64,000 nt of DNA from Brachyspira murdochii. Lineage in GTDB: Bacteria; Spirochaetota; JAAYUW01. Below are positions 38,847 through 44,731 of the stretch, one piece after another. The notes under the pieces were generated by a model, which was given only the letters and a program-made list of their open reading frames with translations, did not search any database and was not told where the DNA came from. Where the stretch lies: positions 54,242 to 118,241 of the forward strand of contig DYJT01000002.1 in assembly GCA_020722965.1 (NCBI GenBank), in the 5' to 3' direction. Every line of letters begins with the position of its first letter. The first letter of the stretch is position 1. The translations under genes and the position numbers were made by a program.

Positions 38847-39404
38847 ATGATGATGAAACATAAGATAGTTATTTCTATTGTCGCTCTTTTATTATTGGTT
38901 AATCTTTATTCAATTAATTGTTTTTCTCAGGTGGCTCCTTCATTGCCCCCAAACTTCTTTACCGATGTTCCTACAAGTCATTGGGCATATGAAGCATTAT
39001 TAAAACTTTATCAATTAGGCTTGATAACAGGTTATCCGGATGGTACTTATAAAGGCAATCAACCCATGAGTAGATATGAAATAGCTTTAGTAATTTATAA
39101 GCTTTTAATCTATCTTCAATCCGAAATAAAAAACACAGATGTTTCTACAACAAATATAACACCAGATAATTTTGATCAAATAATCAATGAGATCCTACAA
39201 AAATCTAAATTAACAGAAGAAGAGCTTAAAATAATAAAAGATCTTGTAAATGAATTTAAAAATGAGCTTTTATCGATGGAATCTCAATATAAATCATTAG
39301 AATCAAGAATTGCTGCTTTGGAAAAAAATCAGACTGCGCTCTATATATCGCTTGCTTCTTCTGTTGTTTCAATAATAGCTATTTTAATCGCAATTTTATT
39401 TTAA
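38847..39404 (+). CDS. SLH-domain protein with coiled coil and C-terminal membrane helix
   Basis: A 185-residue exported protein. A signal peptide ends near NCFSQ. One SLH domain spans about 36-85 (FTDVPTSHWAYEALLKLY, LGLITGYPDGTYKGNQPMSR, YEIALVIYKLL). Then come a polar linker, a coiled coil (about 118-160, ESQYKSLESRIAALEKNQ) and a C-terminal hydrophobic helix of about 22 residues. SLH domains bind cell-wall polymers, and in diderms OmpM/Slp proteins use an SLH domain to tie the outer membrane to the wall. Here a single helix takes the place of the beta-barrel. It lies 20 bp before the LptD-like gene. The function is inferred: envelope tethering. Confidence 0.8.
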   Translation: MMMKHKIVISIVALLLLVNLYSINCFSQVAPSLPPNFFTDVPTSHWAYEALLKLYQLGLITGYPDGTYKGNQPMSRYEIALVIYKLLIYLQSEIKNTDVSTTNITPDNFDQIINEILQKSKLTEEELKIIKDLVNEFKNELLSMESQYKSLESRIAALEKNQTALYISLASSVVSIIAILIAILF

Positions 39405-39424: not shown

Positions 39425-41917
39425 ATGAAATATTTATTAAAAATTTTCTTTTTCTTTTTTATATTATATAGTTTATCCTCTTTTTTTTATCTTAAAGCCC
39501 AGGAAAATCAAGATGATCTATTTTTTGAATCAATATATAAGTATTTAACTGCCGAAGAAGCATTTTTCCTCATAAATTATTCCAGCCTGGAAGAGCTTAA
39601 AAAGATTGCGGACGCTCTAGGATTAACTTATTCGCCTGATGCCACATTGGAAGATTTAAAGAAGTTGCTATATGAGTTTTATGGCTTTACAGAAATGAAA
39701 AAGGGAAAGTCTGAAGAAGTAATCTATATAAAAACTACAGACTTTCTCAGGTACTCTGATGAAAATAAGATTATAGAATTAATTGGAAATAATTTAATAG
39801 TATATAAGGATTATCTTTTTAAAGCAGATAGATTTATATTTTATATTGATGACGAGATAATCTATGGTTATGGAAATATTAGTTTTCAAAACAAATCACT
39901 AAATTTGATAGCAGATAGTTTTGAATATTCTCTGACAAAAAAAAATGGCGTCTTTAAAAATGCTACAATCTATTCCAATAATTACATAATTTCAACTCCT
40001 TTAGCCTATATTTCAAATAATGATACGCTTATTACAGAAAAAGCAACTGTTACGCAATGCAATTATCAAAAACCTCATTATTATATAATTGTCGATAAGG
40101 TTTTATTTTCTGAGTCGTTGATTTTTTTTTACAATCTTCAATTTGTTATTGGTTCAGAAAAACTTTTTTATTTCCCTTTATATATCTCCTATGAAGAGGG
40201 ATATAATTATCCATTATTATTCGGGATGGATTATGGATATAGGGAAGGTTTCATGTTATTCAATACCCTAAAAAGGAAAAATTATTCAATCTATTTTGAT
40301 ATATATGAAAAATTAGGTTTATATTTGGGTTTTGAAACAAAAGGAGAAAATAAAAACATTAACTATACATTTTTAGGTGGGTTTGCGTTAAGTCCAGATC
40401 TATTTTATTATAGTACATCTTCTTTATGGTCAATAATTCCACCTGATGTAAAATTTACGATAAACAATTTGAATTTACGTGCTGGACTTAATGGAATGAT
40501 AAAATTTAATTTTCAAAATGGATTTTATATATCTTTAAAATATGCCTTTTTTACTGATCCCTATTTTAACTATGATTATTTCTTGAGAGAAAGATTTTTA
40601 AGATTTGATATTACTCAGTTTACAGAATTTGATTGGACTGATGACTATGATCTTTTCCCTTCAACAAATTTAACATTTAACGAAGAGATACAATCTGGTT
40701 TTAAGATAATGAATTTTAATGTAAATATATCTTCAAGTTTAAGCTTTACGGCTGAAAAAAACGAATCCTTAGATCAAGCATATTTACAATATTATCTTTA
40801 TTCCCCAAAATATTATCAATATTATTTAAGTTCAATTAAATGGTACAGTCTAAACTTAAGTGGAAATTTGTTTAGTATTTCAGAAGATTGGATAAACTTT
40901 AATATATCAAATTCCTATTATTCGAATTACCTTACATACTATAATTCTGATAAGGTTGTTCAAAAAGAATCTTTATCCGCATCTACCTCGATTACTCCAA
41001 CACTTTCAATTAGATTTAAATTCTTTTCATATTCTCTTTCTATGAGTAATAATATCTCTTATGTTAATACAACTACTGATAGTATTACCGAATCACTTAT
41101 ATACTATTCGACATTATCAAACTCTTTTGTTTTTCAGGTCCCAATTTTTAGGATAACATTGAATTTATCTCAAAGCTATAGAAATTCATTTTTAGAACCT
41201 ATAGATTTTGGATGGCTTTCGAATAGTGCGGGAATATCTATTAATATTTCTCCTTTTTCTTTTTTAAATTTTTCGGCAAACTTAAATTATAATTTTCTTG
41301 ATTCAACAAATTATAATCTCTGGGAATTTTCTGCTGAAAAATTTGAATCAATTAATTTGAATGGTAATTTTAATTATCAATTTATTTCAGCTAATTGGAA
41401 TAGCAAAATTAATTTACTAACTCAAGATTTTCTTTATCATCAATTTAATCTATCATTGACAATTCCTAAGATGAAGATATTATTTTTTTGGCTTAATATT
41501 TCAAACAATCTTTCAATTAAACTGGACAACCAAAACCCTTTTAATAGTTTTTTTGAGAATAACTTTTATCTTGTCTTTTCGATTGAAAAAGAGATTCAAA
41601 TAATATTTAATGTCTCATCATACAATCAGTTTTTATATAGATACTCTTCTTTAGAAGAAGTTATGCTGGATCTATTAGACTCCTTTAATTTTTTTGATTA
41701 TGAGGCAAGATTGAACTCTAATTTCGATCTAAGATCGTTATCTATTTCTTTAACAAGATATTTACATGATATAACAATTCAATTTAAGATAGGTGGATCA
41801 TTTGTATTATCTTCAGACAAGACACAATATAATTTTGTCTTATCTTATTCTGTATATATAATTTCAACATTTTTAACAGGTTATCAATTTTCAGAAGTAT
41901 GGGAGTCTATTTTTTAA
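39425..41917 (+). CDS. LptD/OstA-like outer-membrane protein
   Basis: An 830-residue exported protein: a signal peptide (to about residue 25, LKAQEN) and a short helical N-terminal region. An OstA-like repeat domain follows (about 90-215: NNLIVYKDYLFKADRFIFYI, GYGNISF, LIADSFEYSL, GVFKNATIYS). Then come the LptD-like segment VTQCNYQKPHYYI and LFYFPLYISYEEGYNYPL. The remaining about 580 residues are aromatic-rich amphipathic strands of a beta-barrel, ending in Phe as outer-membrane proteins do. LptD inserts lipopolysaccharide in the outer membrane; whether this organism makes LPS is not shown here. The stop is directly followed by the smc ATG. Confidence 0.75.
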   Translation: MKYLLKIFFFFFILYSLSSFFYLKAQENQDDLFFESIYKYLTAEEAFFLINYSSLEELKKIADALGLTYSPDATLEDLKKLLYEFYGFTEMKKGKSEEVIYIKTTDFLRYSDENKIIELIGNNLIVYKDYLFKADRFIFYIDDEIIYGYGNISFQNKSLNLIADSFEYSLTKKNGVFKNATIYSNNYIISTPLAYISNNDTLITEKATVTQCNYQKPHYYIIVDKVLFSESLIFFYNLQFVIGSEKLFYFPLYISYEEGYNYPLLFGMDYGYREGFMLFNTLKRKNYSIYFDIYEKLGLYLGFETKGENKNINYTFLGGFALSPDLFYYSTSSLWSIIPPDVKFTINNLNLRAGLNGMIKFNFQNGFYISLKYAFFTDPYFNYDYFLRERFLRFDITQFTEFDWTDDYDLFPSTNLTFNEEIQSGFKIMNFNVNISSSLSFTAEKNESLDQAYLQYYLYSPKYYQYYLSSIKWYSLNLSGNLFSISEDWINFNISNSYYSNYLTYYNSDKVVQKESLSASTSITPTLSIRFKFFSYSLSMSNNISYVNTTTDSITESLIYYSTLSNSFVFQVPIFRITLNLSQSYRNSFLEPIDFGWLSNSAGISINISPFSFLNFSANLNYNFLDSTNYNLWEFSAEKFESINLNGNFNYQFISANWNSKINLLTQDFLYHQFNLSLTIPKMKILFFWLNISNNLSIKLDNQNPFNSFFENNFYLVFSIEKEIQIIFNVSSYNQFLYRYSSLEEVMLDLLDSFNFFDYEARLNSNFDLRSLSISLTRYLHDITIQFKIGGSFVLSSDKTQYNFVLSYSVYIISTFLTGYQFSEVWESIF

Positions 41918-44731
41918 ATGAGGGTAAAATTAAGAAAACTTAATATTTATGGTTTTAAATCTTTTGCCGAAAAGACCCAATTTGTATTCGATAAAAATAT
42001 AACAGGAATTGTAGGACCCAATGGATGCGGGAAATCAAATATTGTCGATGCAATATTTTGGGTTTTTCAAAGTCATAGTTTAAAAACCTTAAGAGCAAAT
42101 GAAAAACAGGATTTGATATTCAAGGGGAATGATGTTAAATCTCCTGCTGGTTTTGCTGAGGTAGAGTTGATTTTTAATGTTTATGACTATCAGAATAATG
42201 ATAACTTTTCGATAGAGGATTATAAAGAAGAATTTTCTATAAAAAAAAGATTATATCCATCCGGTGAAACAGTCTACTATTTAAATAAAAAAGAGGCAAG
42301 ACCTAAAGAAATAACCGAATTACTTAAGAGTTATTCGATTACTTCGATCGATTATTCAATTATTGGACAGGGATCTGTAACCAAATTGATAGAAATGAAA
42401 CCAGAAGAAAGAGTAGAATTGATAGAATCGGCTGCAGGTATAAGAAACATTAAAATTGAAAGATCAAAAGCATTTTTAGAATTAGCTAAAACCGAAGAAA
42501 ATTTAAAATCTATCTCACTTTTTTCTGAGGAAATAGAAAATGAAGTCAATAAATTAAAGCAACAGGCGGAAAAAGCCAGAATATATAAAGATTCAAATGA
42601 TAATATTATTTTTGCCGAGCAAGGGCTTCAGATAATCAAATATAGAAAAATAATAGAGTCTATCGATAAATTACAGAAAGAATATGAACAAAGTAATGAA
42701 AATTTAATGAATTATGAAAAAAAAACGCGAATAATTGAAGAAAGTAAGAATAAAGTAAATGAAAGGATAAAAGAATTAGAAAAAGATATTGATGAGAAAA
42801 AGCAAAATATATTTAAAATTGAATCAGATATTGCGGTAATAGAAAGAACCATACTATTGTCTCAAAAAAGATTTGAAGAATTAGCAATAGAGAAAAGAAG
42901 GAAATTGGAAGATTTAAACTTTTTTAAAAACAGAATCAAAAAGATAGATGAGCTGCTTTCTTTTCCCTTTGATGAATTAAAGCAAGAATATGAGCTAGAA
43001 TTAGAAAAAAAAGAAGAATTGGAAGAAGATATAGGCAAACTAGATCAGAAAATTAAAGAATATAATTATAATATCGATAAAACAAGTTTAGAAATTAAAT
43101 CATTAGAAAAGAAACTCAAGAGTTTATATAGCCAGCAAGAAGAATTTTTGGATAAGGAGATCTCTACATTATTTTCAAATTTATATGTTGTAAGAATGAA
43201 ATTAATCAATTTCTTTTCCAATATAAAAAATATTAGCGATCTATCTTCTCAAGAAAAAACAAAACTAATTGGAATAAAGGCAAGAATTGAAGATTTAATT
43301 AAATTTAAAAATTCATCAAATGATCAAATAGTTTCTTATATAGTATCTATAAAAGATGAATTAGAGAAACTTATTTCAGTTTTAAATGAAATATTTATAA
43401 AGACAGATGGTATTTCCAAAGAGTCTTATGAATTTGAGAATTTATTATTTGGTAAAGATTCAATATATTCAAAGTTTCAAGAATCAAATTCATCAATTAA
43501 TGATGTAGATGAAAAGTTGGAACAGGAAAAAAATAATTTGAGCCATTTTCAGGAAGAATTTAATAATTTGATAGAGGCTCGAAACCTTATGAACAAAAGA
43601 CTTGATGAGACAAATCGCAGGATTTTTCAGATAGATGAAAAGCTTAAGAATTACCAGATAAATAAGACAAGATTCGAGAATGAAAAAGTAGAACTTAACT
43701 ATAATATAAAACAAAAAGACGAAGAGATATCGCAGCTTGAAAAAACTATGGAAAAAATAAAAAGCGAAGGGATTGAATTAATAGATGAGAAAGATAAAAT
43801 ATTTTCACAGAAAAAAGATATTGATTCAAAGATAAGAGAATTAGAAAAAGAGATAGATAAATGTAGAGAAGAATTGACAAAGTATTATATAGAAAATGAA
43901 AGTTTAATTAAAGAAAAAAATAATTTATTAAAATTAAGAGAAGAATATAATATTAATAAGGCAAAATTAGAGACTCAACTGGAATCTATAAGGATGAATT
44001 TCTATGAAAATTATAGAATTGTCCTGTCTAACGATTTTTTAAATGATATTAAATTTTCAAATTTAAAAGAATCAGAACTGAGAAATATAATCTATTCATC
44101 ACGAAAAGCAATCGAAGAGGTTGGTCAAGTAAATTTTTTGGCTACAACGCAGTATGATGAAACTTTAAAAAGATTTCAGTTTATTACAAAACAAAAGGAA
44201 GATATAATTTCAACAAAAGAAAAAATACTAGAAATTATAAAGACCTTAGATGAAAATTTAAAGGAAAAATTCCTAGATGCATTTAACAAGATAAATGAAA
44301 ACTTTAAAAATATTTTTTATGAGGTTTTTAAAGGAGGGAATGCATCTATGATTCTAACAAAACCAGATAATTTATTTGAAACAGGAATCGATATAATCAT
44401 CCAACCTCCTGGTAAGAATATTTCAAATATCTCTCTTTTATCGGGTGGTGAGACAGCTATGGCTTCAATCTCACTTCTTTTCGCATTTTTCTTATATTGT
44501 CCTTCACCATTTTGCATTATGGATGAAGTTGATGCGCCATTTGATGAAAATAATGTTAATCTTTATAAAAGGTTGATTAAAAGATTTTCTAGTGATACTC
44601 AGTTTTTCATTATTTCTCATAACAAGTTGACTTTAGAGATTGCTGATATTTTGTATGGCATCACAATGGAGGATTATGGAATAACAAAAGTTGTTTCGGT
44701 TAAGATAGAAGATATCAAAGATGCTGTATAA
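41918..44731 (+). CDS. smc: SMC-type chromosome segregation ATPase, short and hinge-less
   Basis: A 937-residue SMC protein. N-terminal head: LNIYGFKSFAEKT and Walker A GPNGCGKS (33-40). C-terminal head: LLSGGE (Ser842-Glu845) and Walker B with Asp869-Glu870 (CIMDEVDAPFDENN). Two coiled-coil arms lie at about 165-405 and 525-700. Typical bacterial Smc is about 1,150-1,190 residues, with a globular hinge carrying a glycine-rich dimer interface between the arms. Here the middle (about 407-525) is only helical, with no Gly-rich hinge motif. The ABC motifs rule out RecN or SbcC by sequence context. Its start follows the LptD-like stop with no gap. scpA and scpB are not in the window. Confidence 0.9.
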   Translation: MRVKLRKLNIYGFKSFAEKTQFVFDKNITGIVGPNGCGKSNIVDAIFWVFQSHSLKTLRANEKQDLIFKGNDVKSPAGFAEVELIFNVYDYQNNDNFSIEDYKEEFSIKKRLYPSGETVYYLNKKEARPKEITELLKSYSITSIDYSIIGQGSVTKLIEMKPEERVELIESAAGIRNIKIERSKAFLELAKTEENLKSISLFSEEIENEVNKLKQQAEKARIYKDSNDNIIFAEQGLQIIKYRKIIESIDKLQKEYEQSNENLMNYEKKTRIIEESKNKVNERIKELEKDIDEKKQNIFKIESDIAVIERTILLSQKRFEELAIEKRRKLEDLNFFKNRIKKIDELLSFPFDELKQEYELELEKKEELEEDIGKLDQKIKEYNYNIDKTSLEIKSLEKKLKSLYSQQEEFLDKEISTLFSNLYVVRMKLINFFSNIKNISDLSSQEKTKLIGIKARIEDLIKFKNSSNDQIVSYIVSIKDELEKLISVLNEIFIKTDGISKESYEFENLLFGKDSIYSKFQESNSSINDVDEKLEQEKNNLSHFQEEFNNLIEARNLMNKRLDETNRRIFQIDEKLKNYQINKTRFENEKVELNYNIKQKDEEISQLEKTMEKIKSEGIELIDEKDKIFSQKKDIDSKIRELEKEIDKCREELTKYYIENESLIKEKNNLLKLREEYNINKAKLETQLESIRMNFYENYRIVLSNDFLNDIKFSNLKESELRNIIYSSRKAIEEVGQVNFLATTQYDETLKRFQFITKQKEDIISTKEKILEIIKTLDENLKEKFLDAFNKINENFKNIFYEVFKGGNASMILTKPDNLFETGIDIIIQPPGKNISNISLLSGGETAMASISLLFAFFLYCPSPFCIMDEVDAPFDENNVNLYKRLIKRFSSDTQFFIISHNKLTLEIADILYGITMEDYGITKVVSVKIEDIKDAV

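Follow-up and report, generated by a model that had tools for sequence, protein, structure and literature searches.

How does an SMC protein hold its arms together if the hinge is missing? The hinge joins SMC pairs, is treated as a defining part of these proteins and has long been thought universal. The question is raised by the smc gene at 41918-44731 (+) of the window, by which we mean the whole 64,000-nucleotide stretch of Brachyspira murdochii DNA analysed here, and which a preliminary description had presented as coding for an Smc without a recognisable hinge.

The smc gene and its product

The gene opens with an ATG codon and encodes a protein of 937 residues, the family assignment of which is firm. 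The product matches the NCBIfam model TIGR02168 (SMC_prok_B) with 645.9 bits, against a curated cut-off of 567.35, residues 435-930 corresponding to model positions 687-1181, and solved (PDB) Smc heads match both halves of its head. Family model and solved structures thus agree in identifying it as the bacterial Smc of this spirochaete. The protein falls about 245 residues under the 1181 positions of the model, within the 220-250 first estimated for its shortfall against canonical Smc, and a genome-wide search for a second SMC, canonical or otherwise, found none in the 2.07-Mb genome. The partners of a bacterial condensin were looked for and found: scpA and an adjoining 186-residue open reading frame (ORF) lie on another contig, the latter being taken to be the putative scpB (a single match to the ScpB family occurs in the genome), and parB is present as well. 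In the vicinity of smc, ffh lies about 1.5 kb downstream, and an 830-residue ORF without any Pfam match (39425-41917, +), which by appearance might be an LptD-like outer-membrane beta-barrel, is located directly upstream, while 38847-39404 (+) encodes a small protein with S-layer homology (SLH) and a hydrophobic segment at its C-terminal end.

The ATPase head comprises an N-terminal half (residues 1-175; 41918-42442, +) and a C-terminal half (residues 736-937; 44123-44728, +), both of them delimited by matches to Smc heads and by invariant columns. The former contains the Walker A motif GPNGCGKS at residues 33-40, together with R59 and Q151, and the latter contains LSGGE at 841, DEVDA at 869 and H901; R59, Q151 and H901 are invariant across 44 spirochaete SMCs. 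The suggestion that the ABC head motifs are intact holds in this respect, as both Walker motifs (B with its catalytic glutamate), Q151, the LSGGE signature and the H-loop residue H901 are in place, but it does not extend to the near-invariant D-T-G-x-G-K loop that lies just before the Q-loop, which is replaced in this protein (residues 134-156; 42317-42385). A replacement (e.g. SITSIDYS) is seen in all four sampled SMCs from the order to which the window belongs (the window protein, L038, L039 and L040).

Absence of the hinge

The Pfam hinge domain (PF06470) has no match in the 937-residue protein, even at E<=1, and none anywhere in the genome, whereas the same search was positive in 10 of 14 control genomes. 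Because these genome searches came back empty, neither another canonical smc nor a hinge supplied from a different locus can make up for the missing domain. The composition of residues 407-525 agrees with their initial portrayal as rich in serine and lysine and devoid of a glycine-rich interface: serine and lysine account for 26% of the segment, against 20% of the whole protein, and only 3 of its 119 residues are glycine, against approximately 9% in canonical hinges. A zinc hook at the apex can also be discarded, because no CXXC motif is present and the cysteines of the protein are restricted to positions 37, 649, 861 and 866, leaving none at the apex. AlphaFold2 was run as the check for a hinge fold at residues 400-530 and returned helix only, so that both Pfam and structure prediction bear out the description of an Smc without a recognisable hinge.

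A home-made hinge HMM was less decisive. It recovers the 52 canonical SMCs used to build the profile and scores no spirochaete SMC above 5.5 bits, but 3 of 10 divergent hinges score below 15 bits when held out. Given this limited sensitivity, the claim for the absence of a hinge rests also on protein length, on Pfam and on structure prediction. The protein is, in short, Smc by descent but lacks the defining PF06470 domain, and is therefore a hinge-less variant.

A conserved helical module at the apex

The place of the hinge is not occupied by featureless coil. Conservation profiles and AlphaFold2 agree on a conserved helical module, best bounded at residues 403-520 (43124-43477, +) and composed of a conserved helix, a variable helical tip and a C-side motif. 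The N-side helix follows the pattern [IV]-[TI]-[ED]-x-[IL]-V-x-x-[LI]-D. The C-side motif (residues 506-521; 43433-43480, +) reads FENLLFGKDSIYSKFQ in the window protein and is defined by column frequencies in 63 spirochaete sequences, with the phylum consensus F-x-x-x-[FL]-L-x-P-E-G-I-x-T-K-K-R, which belongs to a conserved stretch F-x-x-x-[FL]-[LF]-x-P-E-G-I-x-T-K-K-R-x-I-D, and the wider pattern F-x-x-x-[FL]-[LF]-x-x-x-[GS]-I, as well as by a break of the helix in the two models described below. Much of the apex sequence is variable, and so is its length, about 85-113 residues across the 63 SMCs against some 164 in canonical hinges. The C-side motif cannot be read as the closing segment of a canonical hinge: its distance from the head is some 98 residues too small, and it does not occur in canonical arms at an equal distance.

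Modelled as a single chain, residues 330-590 yield a mean pLDDT of 90.5 and nothing but helix, and the same region of a named Spirochaetales SMC (pLDDT 95.9, pTM 0.75) is likewise devoid of strands. After the N-arm helix and a break, the latter model has one helix of 33 and one of 35 residues; a further, short one leads to a Pro-Glu-Gly loop and the C-arm helix. The best Foldseek matches for both models are fragments of Smc arms, joined in the Spirochaetales case by the MukB elbow, all of them with low TM-scores, and no hinge structure appears among the matches listed for either. Large hydrophobic residues average 0.32 in the apex against 0.27-0.28 in the arms, and 0.42 against 0.31-0.32 in the window SMC, an excess that would fit extra packing at the apex, as far as composition can tell.

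Arms of fixed and reduced length

The N-terminal arm (residues 176-402; 42443-43123, +) and the C-terminal arm (residues 521-735; 43478-44122, +) are held to nearly constant lengths across the phylum. Measured to kinks that correspond to residues 410 and 515, which conservation served to locate to within a few residues, the N-arm spans 238 residues in 59 of the 63 spirochaete SMCs and 235 in the remaining four, one of them the window protein, and the C-arm spans 219-221 residues in 54 of the 63. The four proteins with the N-arm shorter by three residues are the same four in which the head loop is replaced. The corresponding values in 39 canonical SMCs are 335 residues for the N-arm, with hardly any exception, about 320 for the C-arm and about 164 for the hinge, so that each spirochaete arm is some 97-100 residues shorter and the deficit is even on both arms. 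Consistently, the distance from Walker A to LSGGE is 775-820 residues in 63 spirochaete SMCs, as compared with mostly 1017-1141, and once 1220, in hinge-bearing SMCs.

A deficit of about 98 residues amounts roughly to one superhelical period of the coiled coil. Resizing of the Bacillus subtilis Smc arm has revealed a 91-residue period, not far from the superhelical value of about 99, and arms of 253-267 residues make up a short mode that is functional (PMC5344682); a natural shortening by about one such period would back the periodic arm-length rule deduced from that engineered protein. It must be noted that the survey in the same work chose its proteins by homology to dimerisation domains, so that hinge-less spirochaete SMCs could hardly have been included. 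So exact a constancy of the arms suggests, in turn, that the position of the apex matters.

Distribution across the Spirochaetota and beyond

To place the trait, 296 Spirochaetota genomes were searched by profile and by SMC query. The SMC query matches in 280 of them, which is a better figure than the 295 obtained with TIGR02168, some of the latter being chance coiled-coil matches, and ScpA and ScpB are detected in 244 and 246 genomes, respectively (about 83%). In sharp contrast, PF06470 exceeds its cut-off in a single genome (G115), where the match (L002) sits in a JetC-like (Wadjet type) ORF of about 1080 residues and not in the SMC of that genome; matches below the cut-off occur in three genomes of family f36, in ORFs of 562-563 residues. 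When SMCs were scanned one by one at E<=0.01, PF06470 was found in none of 44 spirochaete proteins but in 34 of 37 from other phyla, the three others marking the rate at which the profile misses canonical SMCs. The absence of the hinge is a trait of essentially the whole phylum and not the quirk of one gene, and the phylum survey likewise disposes of an accident of assembly or annotation. As a whole, then, the earlier interpretation was right in its recognisable heads, missing hinge and lack of a second SMC, but it overlooked both the phylum-wide spread and the conserved module.

In a tree of head sequences, the named Spirochaetota records L099, L117 and L118 (one of them from Treponema) fall within the spirochaete SMC group, which is what ties that group to the phylum, and spirochaete SMCs need one label change with respect to other hinge-less groups (support 79/86, hinge-bearing rows left out). 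A single loss of the hinge in spirochaetes is therefore likely, with several deep forks of the tree open. Hinge-less SMCs with longer arms, separating Walker A from LSGGE by 930-932 residues and displaying a related apex motif, were observed in families f15, f25 and f33 (L073, L081 and L087) and probably f34 (L182). No convincing SMC match was obtained in G133, G179, G241 and G243 (f36), G148, G237 and G265 (f44), G277 (f53) and G011 (f12); each of the SMC-negative genomes is given as at least 93% complete, so that SMC itself may have disappeared from part of the phylum.

Outside the Spirochaetota, PF06470 is missing from two SMCs of the Pelagibacteraceae (L100 and L101, with 858 and 819 residues) and from one of the Kiritimatiellaceae (L144, 999 residues, in a sequence with ambiguous bases), and no hinge was found in the three genomes that encode them. 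The tree groups the two Pelagibacteraceae proteins with hinge-bearing Pseudomonadota (98/96) and puts the Kiritimatiellaceae protein next to a hinge-bearing Pontiellaceae SMC (100/99). Since their neighbours in the tree carry hinges, these look like independent events, and we regard them as two further probable losses. In the Omnitrophota, an SMC of 1115 residues (L132) also lacks the Pfam hinge and carries a short mid-protein insert that looks unlike coiled coil.

The case of Borrelia

Family f36 probably corresponds to the Borreliaceae. Its SMCs have about 820 residues, with 461-466 between head anchors against 561 in the window SMC; they carry no hinge, and genomes of the family are without a ScpB match. 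Hi-C analysis of Borrelia burgdorferi has reported chromosome arms that are unaligned in spite of the presence of Smc, for which the missing ScpB was offered as a possible cause with no mention of the hinge (PMC10406323). The missing hinge is a second candidate cause, beside the missing ScpB. The unaligned arms (PMC10406323) also count against the mechanism proposed below, though ScpB is missing there as well.

A proposed mechanism and its alternatives

It seems reasonable to propose, and we consider it somewhat better than an even call, that the protein is an Smc operating with ScpA, ScpB and ParB that has lost the hinge and some 98 hinge-proximal residues on each side, and in which the helical apex closes the arms and dimerises. 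Two apex modules would pack as a homodimeric helical bundle and hold the SMC dimer, and the resulting ring would still load DNA and extrude loops by means of its head-proximal core, as a natural core-only SMC-ScpAB. Without a hinge gate, single-stranded nucleic acid would not be expected to pass through the hinge, and large obstacles would have to be avoided or handled otherwise. The wider proposition, on which we are evenly divided, is that an early, phylum-wide loss of the hinge, an unrelated all-helical dimerisation module and arms shortened by one superhelical period have together produced a gateless, core-only loop extruder, with at least two further independent losses elsewhere.

The alternative that survives best, although we deem it unlikely, dispenses with apical dimerisation altogether: SMCs would be joined only at their heads via ATP and ScpAB, and the tip would merely close each arm. 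Such a role would accommodate a tip varying between about 85 and 113 residues, but it leaves unexplained the conserved motifs and extra hydrophobic residues of the apex and an arm length held to the residue. It also sits uneasily with the JetABC core, which needs a link between its arms and is inactive once the dimer link is cut (PMC12647877), a result from which it follows that a weak apex would not suffice. More doubtful still is a partner protein that would bind the apex and bridge the dimer in trans; a docking site might look like the C-side motif, with its short, conserved sequence that is basic (K-K-R) in most relatives, but no hinge domain is encoded elsewhere in the genome and no candidate partner was identified. 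That a canonical hinge is there and has diverged past recognition appears very improbable. The three of ten held-out hinges that the home-made profile scored below 15 bits and the three of 37 canonical SMCs missed by PF06470 speak for it, but a segment of 85-113 residues instead of about 164, the lack of strands in two confident models, low glycine, apex-specific conserved motifs and best structural matches to pieces of Smc arms all argue against it. Just as improbable is a truncation, a misassembly or a gene that has ceased to code for a condensin. The loss of the conserved head loop in the window's order can be adduced in favour of this, but the same architecture recurs in hundreds of genomes with uniform lengths and an open frame, and scpA, scpB and parB are kept.

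Under the preferred reading, in which the apex dimerises, DNA-loop machines that lack a supposedly universal component may be at work throughout a phylum. The hinge has been proposed as a gate for passing obstacles that is dispensable for extrusion itself (PMC12647877), and a hinge-less phylum constitutes a natural test of this proposal in a group that includes organisms with genetics and Hi-C data. The bearing on loop-extrusion models anticipated in the preliminary description is thus real, but it had been foreshadowed in part by Rad50-hook swaps (PMC5344682) and by the JetABC core (PMC12647877).

Comparison with known systems

A hinge-less SMC as such is already known, from a 2025 ocean-metagenome study that described one cluster, tentatively assigned to the Actinobacteria, and left spirochaetes unmentioned (PMC12153180). 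Full-text literature on spirochaetes, Borrelia or Treponema in connection with the SMC hinge, with subscription journals mostly outside its scope, does not state the trait. What appears to be new in the searchable literature is the extension of the trait to a phylum, the conserved module in the place of the hinge and the two probable further losses. The ocean cluster resembles the spirochaete SMCs in having head and arms with neither hinge nor CXXC hook, but it is set apart by its description, which includes no substitute apex module (PMC12153180).

With bacterial Smc of the B. subtilis type the spirochaete protein shares the ABC heads, the antiparallel arrangement of its coiled-coil arms, orthology by model score and a genome that encodes scpA, scpB and parB; it differs in lacking the hinge, in having each arm about 97-100 residues shorter and in possessing a conserved helical apex of its own. 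Precedents for exchanging the dimerisation domain exist, as a Rad50 zinc hook in place of the B. subtilis Smc hinge allows normal growth (PMC5344682) and the MukB hinge can stand in for the hook in Rad50 (PMC6969161). The B. subtilis mini-Smc and zinc-hook Smc (PMC5344682) come close to the spirochaete design, with an arm about one superhelical period shorter and a dimerisation domain of another fold, but they are laboratory constructs and the spirochaete apex is without cysteine. Rad50/SbcC also presents SMC-like arms without a hinge; the spirochaete protein differs in the absence of CXXC and in a head whose matches to Smc are far stronger than those to Rad50. MukB, Wadjet-II/III JetC and Acetobacter Smc have no hinge channel and are likewise not expected to perform hinge-gated bypass (PMC12647877), but they keep the hinge and, mostly, longer arms, whereas the spirochaete proteins have lost the fold and have shorter arms. 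In the JetABC core the elbow-to-hinge portion is replaced by nine residues; with crosslinked elbows it still cuts plasmid DNA, which its authors read as an indication of loop extrusion, but it does not pass obstacles (PMC12647877). Both lack the elbow-to-hinge portion and keep the head-proximal part (PMC12647877); the JetABC core is a laboratory construct with an engineered disulphide link, whereas the spirochaete SMC carries a conserved apex of its own.
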